Shown: positions 1,911 through 6,028 of the stretch, piece by piece
How positions within the stretch are numbered: position 1 is the first letter of the stretch
How the letters are laid out: every line of letters starts with the position of its first letter
Assembly: GCF_000380085.1 (NCBI RefSeq)
Contig: NZ_KB904542.1
Span: 1-64,000, forward strand
Reading direction: 5' to 3'
Length of the DNA stretch: 64,000 nt
Source: Streptococcus merionis DSM 19192
GTDB lineage: Bacteria > Bacillota > Bacilli > Lactobacillales > Streptococcaceae
Notes under the pieces: generated by a model
The model's input: the letters and a program-made list of their open reading frames with translations, nothing else
The model's database searches: none
What the model was told of the DNA's origin: nothing
Program-made: the position numbers and the translations under genes

Positions 1911-2006
1911 AAGATATACGACCCTTTAAAATCCCGCATGAAAACAAGAAAGCAATAAAGCTGAAATCTTTACAAATTTTCACTGAGAATTTAGGCCAAG
2001 TTCAAT
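1911..2006 (-). repeat. Type A 5'-leader repeat, diverged copy
   Basis: Read on the plus strand it starts AAGATATACGACCCTTT and ends GAATTTAGGCCAAGTTCAATT, matching both ends of the repeats at 4037-4377. It lies directly upstream of the ribosome binding site of the bglA gene at 412-1893. The central hairpin is degenerate in this copy. Confidence 0.6.
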
Positions 2007-2062
2007 TGACACTTTGCTTACCAGACAGGGAATACCTGCCACTAAAGTATCTCTTTTCTGTC

Positions 2063-2071
2063 ATTATACCA
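2063..2071 (-). promoter_or_regulatory. Extended -10 promoter for bglA (412-1893)
   Basis: On the minus strand TGGTATAAT gives a perfect -10 (2063-2068) with a TGN extension. No good -35 is visible. It lies upstream of the type A repeat, so the repeat would be part of the 5' leader RNA. Confidence 0.55.
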
Positions 2072-2171
2072 TGATTTTTCCTGCTTTTCGCATGCTATTC
2101 TACGAATAACTGGTACTATAGCATGATGCCGATAAAATCTTCTGAAAACAAACTGTCCATAGAGAGATCAA

Positions 2172-2555
2172 TTAAACCGTCAATTCAATCTGATTGCCTT
2201 CGGCGTCTAAAATGCAAGATTCGTAGTAGCCATCGCCAGTGACACGCGGTCCACTGATATGCTGGAAACCATCGGCCAGCAGGCGGTCCGTCAGCTGATC
2301 AACCGCTTCCTTGCTACCTAAGCTAAAGGCCAGATGGGCAAAGCCGACGCGGGTCAGCTCTTTTGGTAAATCCACCAAGTCTTCCCGCGTCATAATTTCA
2401 AGACGCGCACCAGAATCAAACGTCAGAAAATAGGATTGAAAACTCGTTTTCTGATTGTGGTATTTGTCTCCAGCTTGAGCTCCAAAATAGGTCTCAAAGA
2501 AGACTTTGGTCGCTTCTAAATCTCGCACGTAAAGCGCAGCGTGTTCAATTTTCAT
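2172..2555 (-). CDS. VOC (glyoxalase/bleomycin-resistance fold) family protein
   Basis: 127 residues with a single vicinal-oxygen-chelate domain: [20 protein letters not shown] at the start and [18 protein letters not shown] at the end carry the beta-alpha-beta-beta-beta repeats and metal-ligand positions (H5, E near the C-terminus). Such proteins include lactoylglutathione-lyase-like enzymes and resistance proteins; the substrate is unknown. The ATG at 2555 is chosen over TTG at 2558 because GGGAG is better spaced to it. It starts 24 nt after the stop of the GH1 gene at 2580-4019, so the two are probably co-transcribed. Confidence 0.85.
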
Positions 2556-2579
2556 CAAAACTCCCTAGATTTACTTGAC

Positions 2580-4019
2580 CTACTTATAAAGACTTGCACC
2601 ATCGGTGGCAATGACTTCCTTATACCAATTGAAGGATTTTTTCTTATAGCGGGCCAGAGTGCCTGTCCCATCATCATTACGATCAACGTAGATAAAACCG
2701 TAGCGCTTGCTGAGCTGGGCTGTTGACGCAGATACCAAGTCAATACAGCCCCAAGTTGTGTAGCCCAGCAATTCGACACCGTCTTGCAACGCTTCGCCAA
2801 CTTGCACCAAGTGCTTTTGCAGGTAGTCAATACGGTAATCATCTTCTACCGTTGGGCCATCTGGACCATCAACCAAGACATCCTTAGCACCTAGACCATT
2901 TTCCACGATAAAGAGTGGCAATTGGTAGCGATCGTAAAAATCATTCAAGACTAAACGCAGACCAACAGGGTCAATTTGCCAGCCCCACTCAGATGCTTCT
3001 AAGAATGGATTGGAAATGCCGCCTAGGATATTGCCCTTACCTGTTTCATAGGCTTCTGGGTTATGCGCCTGAGCGACAGACATATAGTACGAGAAGGAAA
3101 TGAAGTCCACCGTATGCTCGGCCAAGAGCTCCGCATCTCCTTCAGCAAAATCAATTTCAATGTCATTTTCCTTAAAGAAACGCTTGATGTAGTTCGGATA
3201 TTTCCCGCGTGCATGAATATCTGAGAAGAGATAGTTTTGGTTCTCAAAATCACGCACCGCTAATTGATCCAGTGGGTTAGCTGACATTGGGTAAGCTGGC
3301 ATAGCAATCACCATACAGCCGACCATGAAGTCTGGATTGATTTCATGGGCGACTTTCGTTGCCAAAGCTGACGCTACTAACTCATGGTGAACCGCTTGGT
3401 AGAGATCCTGCTTAGACAATTCCTCAACAGGTGTTGCAATCCCACCAGACATGAATGGCGCATGAAGAACTGAGTTGACTTCATTGAAAGTCAACCAATA
3501 CTTCACCTTGTCCTTGTAACGCGTAAAGACCGTACGGACATAGCGCTCGTAAAAACCTATCAAGTCACGACTAGCCCAGCCATTGTATTTACGAGTCAGA
3601 TGAAGCGGTGTCTCATAGTGAGATAGCGTCACCAAAGGCTCAATACCGTACTTATCCAGCTCATCAAACACCTTATCGTAAAAAGCTAAACCAGCCTCAT
3701 TTGGCTCCAGCTCATCTCCATTCGGGAAAATCCGCGACCACGCAATGGACAGTCGAAAAACCTTGAAGCCCATTTCTGCAAAAAGGGCGATATCTTCCTT
3801 GTAGCGGTGGTAAAAATCAATCCCTTCAAGCTTGAGATTGTCCTCAGTTGGCACTTCAGTGATTAAGGGATTACGATCTCCTGGTTTAGCAGGAATCCCG
3901 CCTTGCGGTGTCACATCCTGAACAGAAAGTCCTTTACCATCAATATTATATGCTCCTTCAAATTGGTTCGCAGCTGTCGCTCCTCCCCAGAGGAAGTCTT
4001 TTGGAAATGTATAAGTCAT
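2580..4019 (-). CDS. bglA: 6-phospho-beta-glucosidase, GH1 (second copy)
   Basis: 479 residues, glycoside hydrolase family 1. E180 in TFNEVN is the acid/base and E373 in IVENGLGA the nucleophile; [20 protein letters not shown] marks the 6-phospho-beta-glucosidase branch. The ATG at 4019 has AGGAG 6 nt upstream. The protein is clearly a paralogue of the enzyme at 412-1893 but not a recent duplicate, since they differ throughout. The gene heads a unit with the VOC gene, and its leader carries three tandem type A repeats. The divergent AraC regulator at 4689 is the natural candidate controller. Confidence 0.93.
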
Positions 4020-4036
4020 GTTTTTCTCCTTATTTT

Positions 4037-4377
4037 AAGATACAAAGCCCGTTAAGAAAAGCGTTGAAAAATGAAAAAATTGACAACGAGCCTGTAGGCT
4101 CTAGGAAATTTTTGAATTTTATCAAGCTTTTTAGGGCGTGTTCAGTTGATTAAGATATGAGGCCGTGAAAAAAATCCGATGAAAAATGAGAAAACAGACG
4201 ACAAGTCCCAAGACTTGAGGAAGTTTTCAAATTTTATCGAGGATTTTAGGCCGAATTCAGTTATACAAGATATGAGGGCGTATAGAAATGCGTTGGAAAA
4301 TAAGGGAGTGACCAATGAGTCCGAAGACTCAAGGGAACTCACGCATTTTACCGAGCATTTTAGCCCGTGTTCAGTTA
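4037..4377 (-). repeat. Three tandem type A 5'-leader repeats
   Basis: Copies at 4037-4148, 4151-4262 and 4265-4377 share the end GATAC/TAAAG..GCG..TTGAAAAATG and the end TTTTAGGGCGTGTTCAGTT (plus-strand reading). Each has a central hairpin with a different stem: GAGCCT/AGGCTC at 4088-4101, CAAGTC/GACTTG at 4202-4217, GAGTC/GACTC at 4317-4330. On the bglA strand the GATACAAAG end faces the start codon, 18 nt from the ATG at 4019. A plus-strand open frame across them (4179-4382) is a by-product of the repeats. Confidence 0.8.
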
Positions 4378-4617: not shown

Positions 4618-4688
4618 ACTGAAATATCAAAAAGCGTTGAACCATCTCTTCCTAAAGAAAAATTTCTACCATCAAGCAAGGAGCTCTC

Positions 4689-5594
4689 ATGGCCGTTCAA
4701 GAATTGATCCAAGACTATAAGCAAGCTGTTCAACACCAAAACAGACTCTTGCCTGTTACTATGAAACACACGGAGGTCAAAAACGGCATTCCCGATATCC
4801 TCTTTCATTGGCATCCCGAAATGGAGATTATACTCGTCCGCGAAGGAACGGCTAATTTTCATATCGATTATGACCGCTTTGAAAGCAAAGCAGAAGATAT
4901 TATTCTCATCAGACCTAATGGCCTCCACTCGATTCACCCGATTGCTAACCAAGGGCATGTCACCGATAGTATCATGGTCCATTTGGACTTTCTAGGCGCC
5001 TCTCAGATGGATCAGGCCGGTATCCACCTTTTGCAACCTCTGCAAAATGCCTCTTCTAAGTTTGTCATGAGGATTCAGCCAGCTGATTCAGGTTATGAAG
5101 ATCTGCGTGCTACGCTGGAAAATATCATCTCCCTTGAAAAGGACAAACCTGAATTCTACGAATTAGAACTCAAATCCTTACTCAGCCATTTTATTTACAC
5201 CGCCTACAAGCACAATTATGTCCGTCAAAAAATGACAGATGATTTTTACCGGAAAAACGAAAAAATTCGAGCTATCATCGAGTTTATCCAGCGCAACTAC
5301 ACCCGACCCTTGACGATTGCTGAGCTGGCGGAGCAAGCTAATTACAGTGAGACCCATTTCATGACTTTTTTCAAGAGTCAAACTGGTACCTCTGCTATGG
5401 ACTTCGTCATCCAACATCGCCTCCACATGGCCACACAAGAGCTCAAACATTCGGTGAAGCCTGTTTTAAGAATTGCAGAGGAAGTCGGGTTTAACAATCT
5501 CTCTAATTTTAACCGACAATTCCGCAAATATTATCAGCAAACACCAAGTCAATACCGCAAGGCTAAACGCCTCAAAGCAGCGAACAAGGAGTGA
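4689..5594 (+). CDS. AraC-family transcriptional regulator
   Basis: 301 residues: an N-terminal cupin-like sensing domain (about 20-160; HWHPEMEIILVREG, IRPNGLHSIHP) and two C-terminal helix-turn-helices (about 195-295; TIAELAEQANYSETHFMTFF and RIAEEVGFNNLSNFNRQFRK, ending PSQYRK). This is the layout of sugar-responsive AraC activators. The ATG at 4689 follows AAGGAG. It is divergent from the bglA-VOC unit and is the only regulator in the cluster, so control of beta-glucoside genes is a reasonable inference; the ligand is unknown. Confidence 0.9.
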   Translation: MAVQELIQDYKQAVQHQNRLLPVTMKHTEVKNGIPDILFHWHPEMEIILVREGTANFHIDYDRFESKAEDIILIRPNGLHSIHPIANQGHVTDSIMVHLDFLGASQMDQAGIHLLQPLQNASSKFVMRIQPADSGYEDLRATLENIISLEKDKPEFYELELKSLLSHFIYTAYKHNYVRQKMTDDFYRKNEKIRAIIEFIQRNYTRPLTIAELAEQANYSETHFMTFFKSQTGTSAMDFVIQHRLHMATQELKHSVKPVLRIAEEVGFNNLSNFNRQFRKYYQQTPSQYRKAKRLKAANKE

Positions 5595-5654
5595 GGCAAA
5601 CACAGCAGTGTCACCTGTTGAATAGTAAACAATGCAACAACTGTCTGAAAACGA

Positions 5655-5683
5655 TTGACTTTAGTCATCAAATATGTTATATT
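5655..5683 (+). promoter_or_regulatory. Promoter upstream of sppA
   Basis: TTGACT at 5655-5660 and TATATT at 5678-5683 with a 17-nt spacer. It lies about 360 nt before sppA, so the transcript would carry both repeat modules (5734-6028) in its leader. Confidence 0.65.
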
Positions 5684-5733
5684 ACAGTCATACAGTTAAC
5701 TGTTGCGGTGCAAAGTCTAACTTTGTAGCTTTT

Positions 5734-5846
5734 AATTGAATTCGGCCTAAAATGCTCGGTAAAATTCGAAAACTTCCTCAAGTCTTGTGACTTGTCGTCT
5801 GTTTCCTCATTTTTCATCGTATTTTTTCACGGCCTCATATCTTAAC
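5734..5846 (+). repeat. Type A 5'-leader repeat in the sppA leader
   Basis: Inverse orientation to the 4.0-4.4 kb copies, hence the same orientation relative to the downstream gene. Ends GAATTCGGCCTAAAATGC and GGCCTCATATCTTAAC. Hairpin CAAGTC/GACTTG at 5779-5794. Confidence 0.8.
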
Positions 5847-5847
5847 T

Positions 5848-6028
5848 AACTGAACACGGGCTAAAATGCTAAATTGGCCTCATCTGACTAGAACCGTAGA
5901 CGTCTGGATTTTCTTTGATTTCATCTGTGAAAAACCTAGTCGTCATGGTCGGGGTGCGTCTACGTCATCAAAGATGACTGACTTACCGCCATTTTCCATC
6001 GCATTTTTTGACGCCCTTTGTATCTTAT
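5848..6028 (+). repeat. Type B 5'-leader repeat in the sppA leader
   Basis: Shares the type A ends (ACTGAACACGGGCTAAAATGC; GACGCCCTTTGTATCTTA) but has a different, longer middle containing TAGACGTCTGGATTTTC and the perfect hairpin GTCATC-AAA-GATGAC near 5969. Nearly identical to the copy before rbfA (41269-41436). It ends 5-8 nt before the AAGGAG of sppA. Confidence 0.8.

Follow-up and report, generated by a model that had tools for sequence, protein, structure and literature searches.

A dispersed hairpin repeat of Streptococcus found beside and inside Shine-Dalgarno–start codon units

The window analysed here, the 64,000 nucleotides (nt) at the start of contig 5 of the 2.36-Mb draft genome of Streptococcus merionis DSM 19192, carries a family of small repeats whose copies recur directly before the start codons of unrelated genes, which raises the question of why one sequence should be found so often at the signals for translation initiation. 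A sequence-only reading of the window had described the family as modular, with two types of copy, alike at both ends but not in the middle, and had proposed either a function in the 5'-untranslated region (5'-UTR) or a strongly biased insertion. The family, its two types, and the positions given for the copies were confirmed by our analysis: type A is ~112 nt and type B 170-181 nt long, both ends are common to the two types, and the middle is different. In our best explanation, to which we give a probability of roughly 0.55, the element is a non-autonomous, dispersed hairpin repeat of Streptococcus, comparable in life style to miniature inverted-repeat transposable elements (MITEs), that is tolerated at translation-initiation sites as its RNA folds away. 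The element is oriented throughout from its left end, AAYTGAAY, to its right end, TATCTTA.

For the census of the family, a covariance model (R1) was trained on 65 copies from the own genome (alignment A2; 68 copies were listed, with one duplicate and one copy containing N already skipped, and three shorter or divergent ones were omitted). R1 recognizes nine copies and one fragment in the window, near its start and near 41.3 kb; five of the nine are training copies, which match by construction. The own genome as a whole has 107 matches (E up to 0.01), a count from which weak copies may be missing because 150 of the 1842 first-look candidates were scored. Including the own genome, 143 of 147 Streptococcus genomes contain matches. 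All twelve named genomes that were tried match as well, namely S. ratti (43 matches), S. devriesei (52), S. massiliensis (28), Streptococcus sp. 'caviae' (39), S. suis YS161 (24), S. moroccensis (22), S. orisasini (72), S. entericus (13), S. gallolyticus (11), a metagenome-assembled genome (21), S. hillyeri (25), and S. sobrinus (39), although these twelve were found through the left-end pattern, so that matches in them were likely beforehand. No match was found in 23 genomes that represent other families of the order, and a family-wide search matched 237 of 295 genomes, 236 of which are Streptococcus and one (G191) of which belongs to another genus. With one copy as the query (E 1e-3), none of 50,697 phage records matched, and one partial match was found in 72,556 plasmid records. 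Rfam 15 gave no match over any copy (the whole window at the gathering score; loci L083, L089, and L078 and window positions 1-8000 at E up to 10), and the element is not described in the title or abstract of the open-licence papers that we retrieved.

To place the copies relative to genes, we used loci of ~3 kb around each cluster (55 at first, 20 added after the census) and called the right ends of arrays with a right-end hidden Markov model, which gave 67 right ends in the own genome. Nine of these lie in a composite repeat described below (L008, L010, L016, L018, L029, L030 plus strand, L032, L039, and L046) and were dropped from the count. A right end was assigned to the start class if the start codon of an open frame, preceded by a Shine-Dalgarno (SD) sequence, lies 8-24 nt downstream in the same sense. 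Of the remaining 58 right ends, 38 belong to this class, with actual distances of 11-21 nt, as against 36 of 3000 random non-coding positions (1.2%). Five lie directly at a convergent gene's stop codon (28 of 3000 random positions, 0.9%), and 15 adjoin neither a start nor a convergent stop, at least four of them (L043, L096, L100, and L113) apparently followed by a further copy. Among 47 left ends looking outward, none faces a start. In the window, the right end TATCTTA stands just before the SD of all four genes for which this had been claimed, two glycosyl hydrolase family 1 genes, sppA, and rbfA. The general claim of placement right before starts stood for the 38 ends above and failed for the 15 at neither site and the nine in the composite repeat. 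The covariance-model search and the tabulation of distance and orientation that the sequence-only reading had proposed revealed strong biases in both placement and orientation, and no random scatter. Of the two interpretations that it offered, the bias singles out neither; since some right ends abut convergent stops, a pure 5'-UTR function does not explain them. For other genomes, 40 loci from 31 genomes were chosen from the match lists blind to gene context, and their 41 unique array ends comprise nine at starts, six that split an SD from its start codon, nine at convergent stops, and 17 at neither; some of the 17 have a further copy after them, and in one (L187) the script overlooked an SD and an ATG.

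Most copies fold back as a single long hairpin. RNAalifold predicted 21 pairs for the 65 copies of A2, 11 of them with changes on both sides. The base helix, which is missing from this prediction because of a gap shift in A2, mostly takes the form GGCC/GGCC, GCCC/GGGC, or GGGC/GCCC and is paired at all four positions in 54 of the 65 copies, compared with an average of 20 and no more than 33 across 2000 partner shuffles. The two bases that flank this helix, one following GAA and the other preceding TATC, are C-G in 33 copies, T-A in 20, C-A in seven, and T-G in five; the element ends pair imperfectly (GAAY with RTATC) and form the foot of one long hairpin. Genus-wide, all 23 predicted pairs have both-side changes that keep pairing among 116 copies from other genomes, in an alignment that was fitted using R1 and is hence biased toward the R1 structure. 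Two conserved internal loops were seen by eye in this genus alignment, TCCT opposite GCGTC and AGAT opposite TCCT.

The copies that bear most directly on translation are those lying between an SD and its start codon. After filtering, 20 entries have the copy between their only SD motif, on its left, and the start codon, on its right; in 62, the SD is on the right of the copy. The split genes are seven and mutually unrelated: prfA, purE, nusA, dnaK, dnaJ, carB, and purB, with purE in the own genome (L104), nusA in S. hillyeri, dnaJ in S. suis, and prfA in genomes that we take for relatives of S. suis. For prfA, 30 loci were fetched, with 117 further matching genomes outside this sample; 17 of the 30 (counting L186/L239 as one locus and L191/L225 as another) read GAAAGG, hairpin, ATG, and in the remaining 13, all of them more distant, a plain SD is present and a copy is not. 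One of the 17 copies, of 77 nt, no longer has the upper part of its hairpin but retains the foot. Across the closed foot of the predicted hairpin, 20 distinct loci covering prfA, purE, dnaK, and nusA have an SD-to-AUG spacing of 9-12 nt, versus 77-123 nt along the strand, and ordinary genes in the own genome have a spacing of 6-12 nt. (The prfA spacing of L232 is 12 nt by hand count; the script value of 6 is an artefact of the pattern, arising from ATC inside TTAATCTT.) Fifteen of the 17 prfA copies were aligned (alignment A3, which omits L229, L238, and L186) on a structure taken from one of the aligned sequences, and 98.0% of the cells are paired, with both-side changes in 19 of 34 pairs. 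None of 500 shuffles was as high on pairing or on both-side changes, and structures slid along the alignment pair in 41-52%.

In the S. suis YS161 locus (L068:750-1334) and in L226-L241, copies and half copies often have AGAAAGG before them, and upstream of prfA and dnaJ there, several SD-like motifs alternate with hairpins.

These features suggest how a copy might be borne at an initiation site. The RNA of the element would fold into a long closed hairpin, with ~4 nt left over on the 5' side of its foot and 5-8 nt on the 3' side. With a copy upstream of the SD, the SD-start unit would stay intact; with a copy between the SD and the start codon, folding would return both to a working distance of 9-12 nt, and the ribosome might initiate across the hairpin, by analogy with what has been described for genes 38 and 25 of phage T4. 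Copies beside or inside the SD-start signal are probably harmless, as the closed hairpin keeps the two halves of the signal together, and the tight placement would then reflect insertion preference combined with tolerance, not regulation.

Filled and empty orthologous sites, nesting in other repeats, and tandem arrays show that the element is dispersed. The rbfA array of the window has no counterpart within 150 nt upstream of rbfA in any of 29 relatives fetched; in two of them (L118 and L121), copies are found on the opposite strand, ~290-530 nt upstream, a third (L134) carries a copy at another place in its locus, and in S. moroccensis the site is uninterrupted up to AGAAAGGAG. Among 30 loci fetched for an operon encoding a phosphotransferase system (PTS) IIA component, two are filled and 28 empty, and the right junction falls exactly at ATAAGGAG. 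Nesting was seen in BOX-type elements, by which we mean elements with ends of the form TACTCTTCGAAAATC ... GATTTTCATTGAGTAT, presumably those of BOX. In L134:469-580, a copy lies inside a BOX-type element whose flanks continue as in unoccupied elements, and in L109 (G000:C2:118395-118508) a copy is nested in the opposite orientation. As a possible mobilizer, the Y1 transposase (PF01797, IS200/IS605-like) was considered. It matches 90 of 147 genomes and is without a match in the other 57 at E 1e-5, including G020 with 45 R1 matches and G007 with 18, and a requirement for it is ruled out by these copy-rich genomes.

The genes downstream of the copies are unrelated, as had been claimed. A Pfam scan of 21 of the 38 in the own genome found ABC transporter parts, RNase III, exonuclease VII, PriA, a PRD antiterminator, RsgA, an ATP synthase alpha/beta-type subunit, PadR, a glycosyl hydrolase, SppA, RbfA, and others, with one gene lacking a match, and the split genes add to this diversity. 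This lack of a common target, together with the species-specific occupancy of the rbfA and PTS IIA sites, the placements at convergent stops, and the lack of a significant effect on SD accessibility (below), makes it unlikely that the element is a domesticated cis-regulatory 5'-UTR element, in which a protein, the ribosome, or a ligand would bind the conserved internal loops and tune the translation or stability of many mRNAs. The tight distance to the SD, the conservation of the internal-loop sequences, and the prfA position common to 17 genomes are what such a role would lead one to expect.

Several observations weigh against tolerance through RNA folding of a mobile repeat as the explanation. 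The placements at convergent stops (5/58 in the own genome and 9/41 in the others) are not explained by tolerance at initiation sites, and a target preference at gene edges likely contributes to them; the ends that fit no class amount to 15/58 and 17/41, respectively. The predicted SD accessibility for 37 leaders is 0.37 with the element and 0.31 with shuffled elements (20 shuffles of each element), a difference that is not significant (p 0.19), and it is higher, 0.64, without the upstream sequence. The numbers of G-U and A-C appositions (18:22 in the own copies, 6:9 in the prfA copies, and 91:31 in the model-fitted genus alignment) do not clearly favour RNA over DNA folding. As for prfA, the query included the copy, so that loci carrying a copy rank first; further pair types in the prfA copies number 23, below the shuffled mean of 27.5 (500 of 500 shuffles were as high or higher); and the copies form about three subtypes, so that replacement of one copy by another could mimic compensatory change. 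For carB (L158 and L192) and purB (L160), 22-28 nt separate the hairpin foot from the nearest SD upstream. With regard to dispersal, the filled PTS IIA site is not a simple interruption, since a spacer of 23-24 nt is replaced by ~46 nt of other sequence plus the copy; inspection by eye of 91 flank pairs revealed no consistent target duplication, isolated 5-base matches occurring in L066 and L007; and no mobilizer was found in a search that covered the Y1 transposase (PF01797) only among transposase families. Separately, with the accessibility difference from the shuffles not significant (p 0.19), we claim neither that the element insulates the SD nor that it sequesters it.

Some of these points agree with a purely selfish transposable hairpin that prefers gene edges, whose hairpin is needed as single-stranded DNA for transposition and whose RNA form is idle. 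The tandem arrays and the nesting in BOX-type elements, the sites at convergent stop codons as well as at starts, and the absence of a G-U excess over A-C in the own copies would all follow from it. Without an RNA effect, however, the splits in conserved genes such as prfA would leave the SD and the start codon 77-123 nt apart; the strong sense-strand bias at starts, with no left end of 47 facing a start, and the fact that a resident Y1 transposase is not required also speak against it, and we regard it as unlikely. A mobile repeat tolerated through the folding of its RNA remains our preferred reading.

A bolder form of the preferred reading, which we put forward tentatively as somewhat less probable than not, is that the element represents a genus-wide class of mobile DNA specialized in the ribosome-binding site, inserting beside or inside the SD-start unit and surviving even in prfA, the gene for release factor 1, by self-folding of its RNA. 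If this is true, it would be a translational counterpart of the self-splicing intron that works by folding rather than splicing. The hairpins between SD and AUG in seven chromosomal genes offer a natural and repeatable test of initiation across a closed RNA hairpin, and so many natural replicates would make it easier to tell insertion preference from translational tolerance when small dispersed repeats evolve. A structured element without an Rfam match before many streptococcal genes also bears on how transcript leaders are read and on expression design in the genus.

The copies in the window and a promoter-like sequence are listed in Table 1. With this promoter-like sequence upstream, the sppA array would be in the mRNA leader. 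The three type A copies before the second glycosyl hydrolase gene form a head-to-tail array. The two diverged type A copies differ in their folds: the one nearest the window start folds at -19.5 kcal/mol (z -1.7), and the other folds no better than its shuffles (z 0.23). A family of matches to the 181-nt type B copy before sppA occurs in the own genome. An R1 match at 35825-35893 (29.6 bits) looks like a terminator-like hairpin and was not counted as a copy. Elsewhere in the window, Rfam matches SpR19 sRNA and RNase P class B at 39721-39838 and 31662-32027, respectively.

Table 1. Copies of the element and a promoter-like sequence in the window.
Feature	Positions	Strand	R1 score (bits)	Remarks
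Diverged type A copy	1909..2007	-	44.2	Outside R1 training; right end just before SD of glycosyl hydrolase family 1 gene (PF00232), start codon at 1893
Type A copy, last of three-copy array	4035..4147	-	127.1	Training copy; right end 15 nt before start codon at 4019 of second glycosyl hydrolase family 1 gene (PF00232), SD present
Type A copy, middle of array	4150..4262	-	121.8	Training copy
Type A copy, first of array	4265..4376	-	120.1	Training copy
Diverged type A copy	4504..4617	-	52.4	Outside R1 training; adjoins neither start codon nor convergent stop
Promoter-like sequence (TTGACT, 17 nt, TATATT)	5655..5683	+		Consensus match only; upstream of sppA array
Type A copy, first of sppA array	5734..5845	+	123.4	Training copy
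Type B copy	5848..6028	+	43.7	Outside R1 training; right end 15 nt before sppA start codon at 6044 (peptidase S49, PF01343)
Type B copy	41267..41435	-	40.8	Outside R1 training; right end 14 nt before rbfA start codon at 41252 (PF02033)
Type A copy upstream of rbfA type B copy	41436..41548	-	129.5	Training copy
Partial copy, far end of rbfA array	41551..41605	-	18.9	End-only blastn matches; R1 hit at 41551-41651, E 0.19

The composite repeat mentioned above is a second, larger repeat with a conserved left part of its own and a hairpin of the present family in its middle. It was seen in L030:1325-1660 and in L003, L004, L008, L010, L016, L018, L029, L032, L034, L038, L039, and L046; nine loci also have a conserved right part of its own, and its position is not at start codons. 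Similarity to its left part occurs in the window at 15780-15874, 27042-27193, and 52950-53104.

Three further placements were noticed. L005:791-1486 encodes RNase III, an enzyme that cuts long RNA hairpins, and a copy stands directly before its SD. In L059-L062 and several of L159-L193, which come from many genomes, a copy abuts the stop codon of what appears to be the same gene, with a C-terminus resembling ribosomal protein S7; different species would thus have this convergent position in common. A diverged copy in L098:1501-1610 (G000:C17:3672-3781) runs antisense next to a sequence that we take to be the 3' terminus of a 16S rRNA gene; ~10 nt away is the anti-SD in reverse complement, which reads as a perfect SD on that strand, where no gene accompanies it.

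Among known systems, REP elements with a Y1 (RAYT) transposase are many-copy palindromes in intergenic DNA; the present hairpin is much longer, is biased to start codons, and shows no dependence on a Y1 transposase gene. BOX, RUP, and SPRITE, together with two families in S. suis that resemble BOX, are described by Croucher et al. 2011 (PMC3049150). Like BOX as portrayed there, the present element is a small, intergenic, modular, hairpin-forming, multi-copy streptococcal repeat that clusters and nests with other repeats. The ends differ, TACTCTTCGAAAATC ... GATTTTCATTGAGTAT in BOX versus AAYTGAAY ... TATCTTA here. In one pneumococcal genome, BOX follows the coding bias and occurs more often than expected between convergent genes (PMC3049150), unlike the present element with its enrichment at start codons. 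The distribution of BOX is also narrow, the paper giving it as almost absent from streptococci except S. pneumoniae, S. mitis, and, as related families, S. suis (PMC3049150), compared with 143 of 147 Streptococcus genomes for the present element. When 13 BOX-type right ends were compared with 181 copies, the best E was 0.29; full BOX-type sequences gave a best E of 0.095 in the six of eight without a nested copy and 1e-12 or better in the two with one. Since copies are nested in the BOX-type elements of L134 and L109, the two are different things, and the earlier statement that the element is not BOX is upheld.

Alternatively, the element could belong, as one branch, to the BOX-like families of S. 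suis (boxA-boxC, with RepSU1 as the smallest form), which were described in 2011. It shares with them a modular build of fixed ends and a variable middle; one of the two families has outer modules of ~50 nt (PMC3049150), a two-module form of which would be close to type A in length, and S. suis YS161 has 24 R1 matches. However, the paper reports that the S. suis family was recognized through the pneumococcal boxC model (PMC3049150), and BOX-type ends from our loci gave nothing better than E 0.09 against the 181 copies unless a copy was nested. The same source describes the S. suis families as almost absent from other streptococci (PMC3049150), in conflict with the genus-wide occurrence reported here, and the nesting of copies in BOX-type elements also speaks against such an overlap. 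We regard a place among these families as improbable.

RUP carries terminal inverted repeats of its own. By their description, RUP (~107 bp) and SPRITE (terminator-like) of S. pneumoniae are comparable to the present element in being AT-rich and dispersed, with predicted stem-loops (PMC3049150). In terms of translation, there is a likeness to genes 38 and 25 of phage T4, in which a structure between the SD and the AUG restores a functional distance. In the account of these genes, the structure cuts the SD-AUG distance from 22 to 5 nt and from 27 to 11 nt, and destabilizing it lowers initiation (PMC3014915). The T4 cases are single phage leaders in which destabilizing changes were tested, whereas the element described here is a dispersed repeat in unrelated bacterial genes, for which the same effect is predicted.

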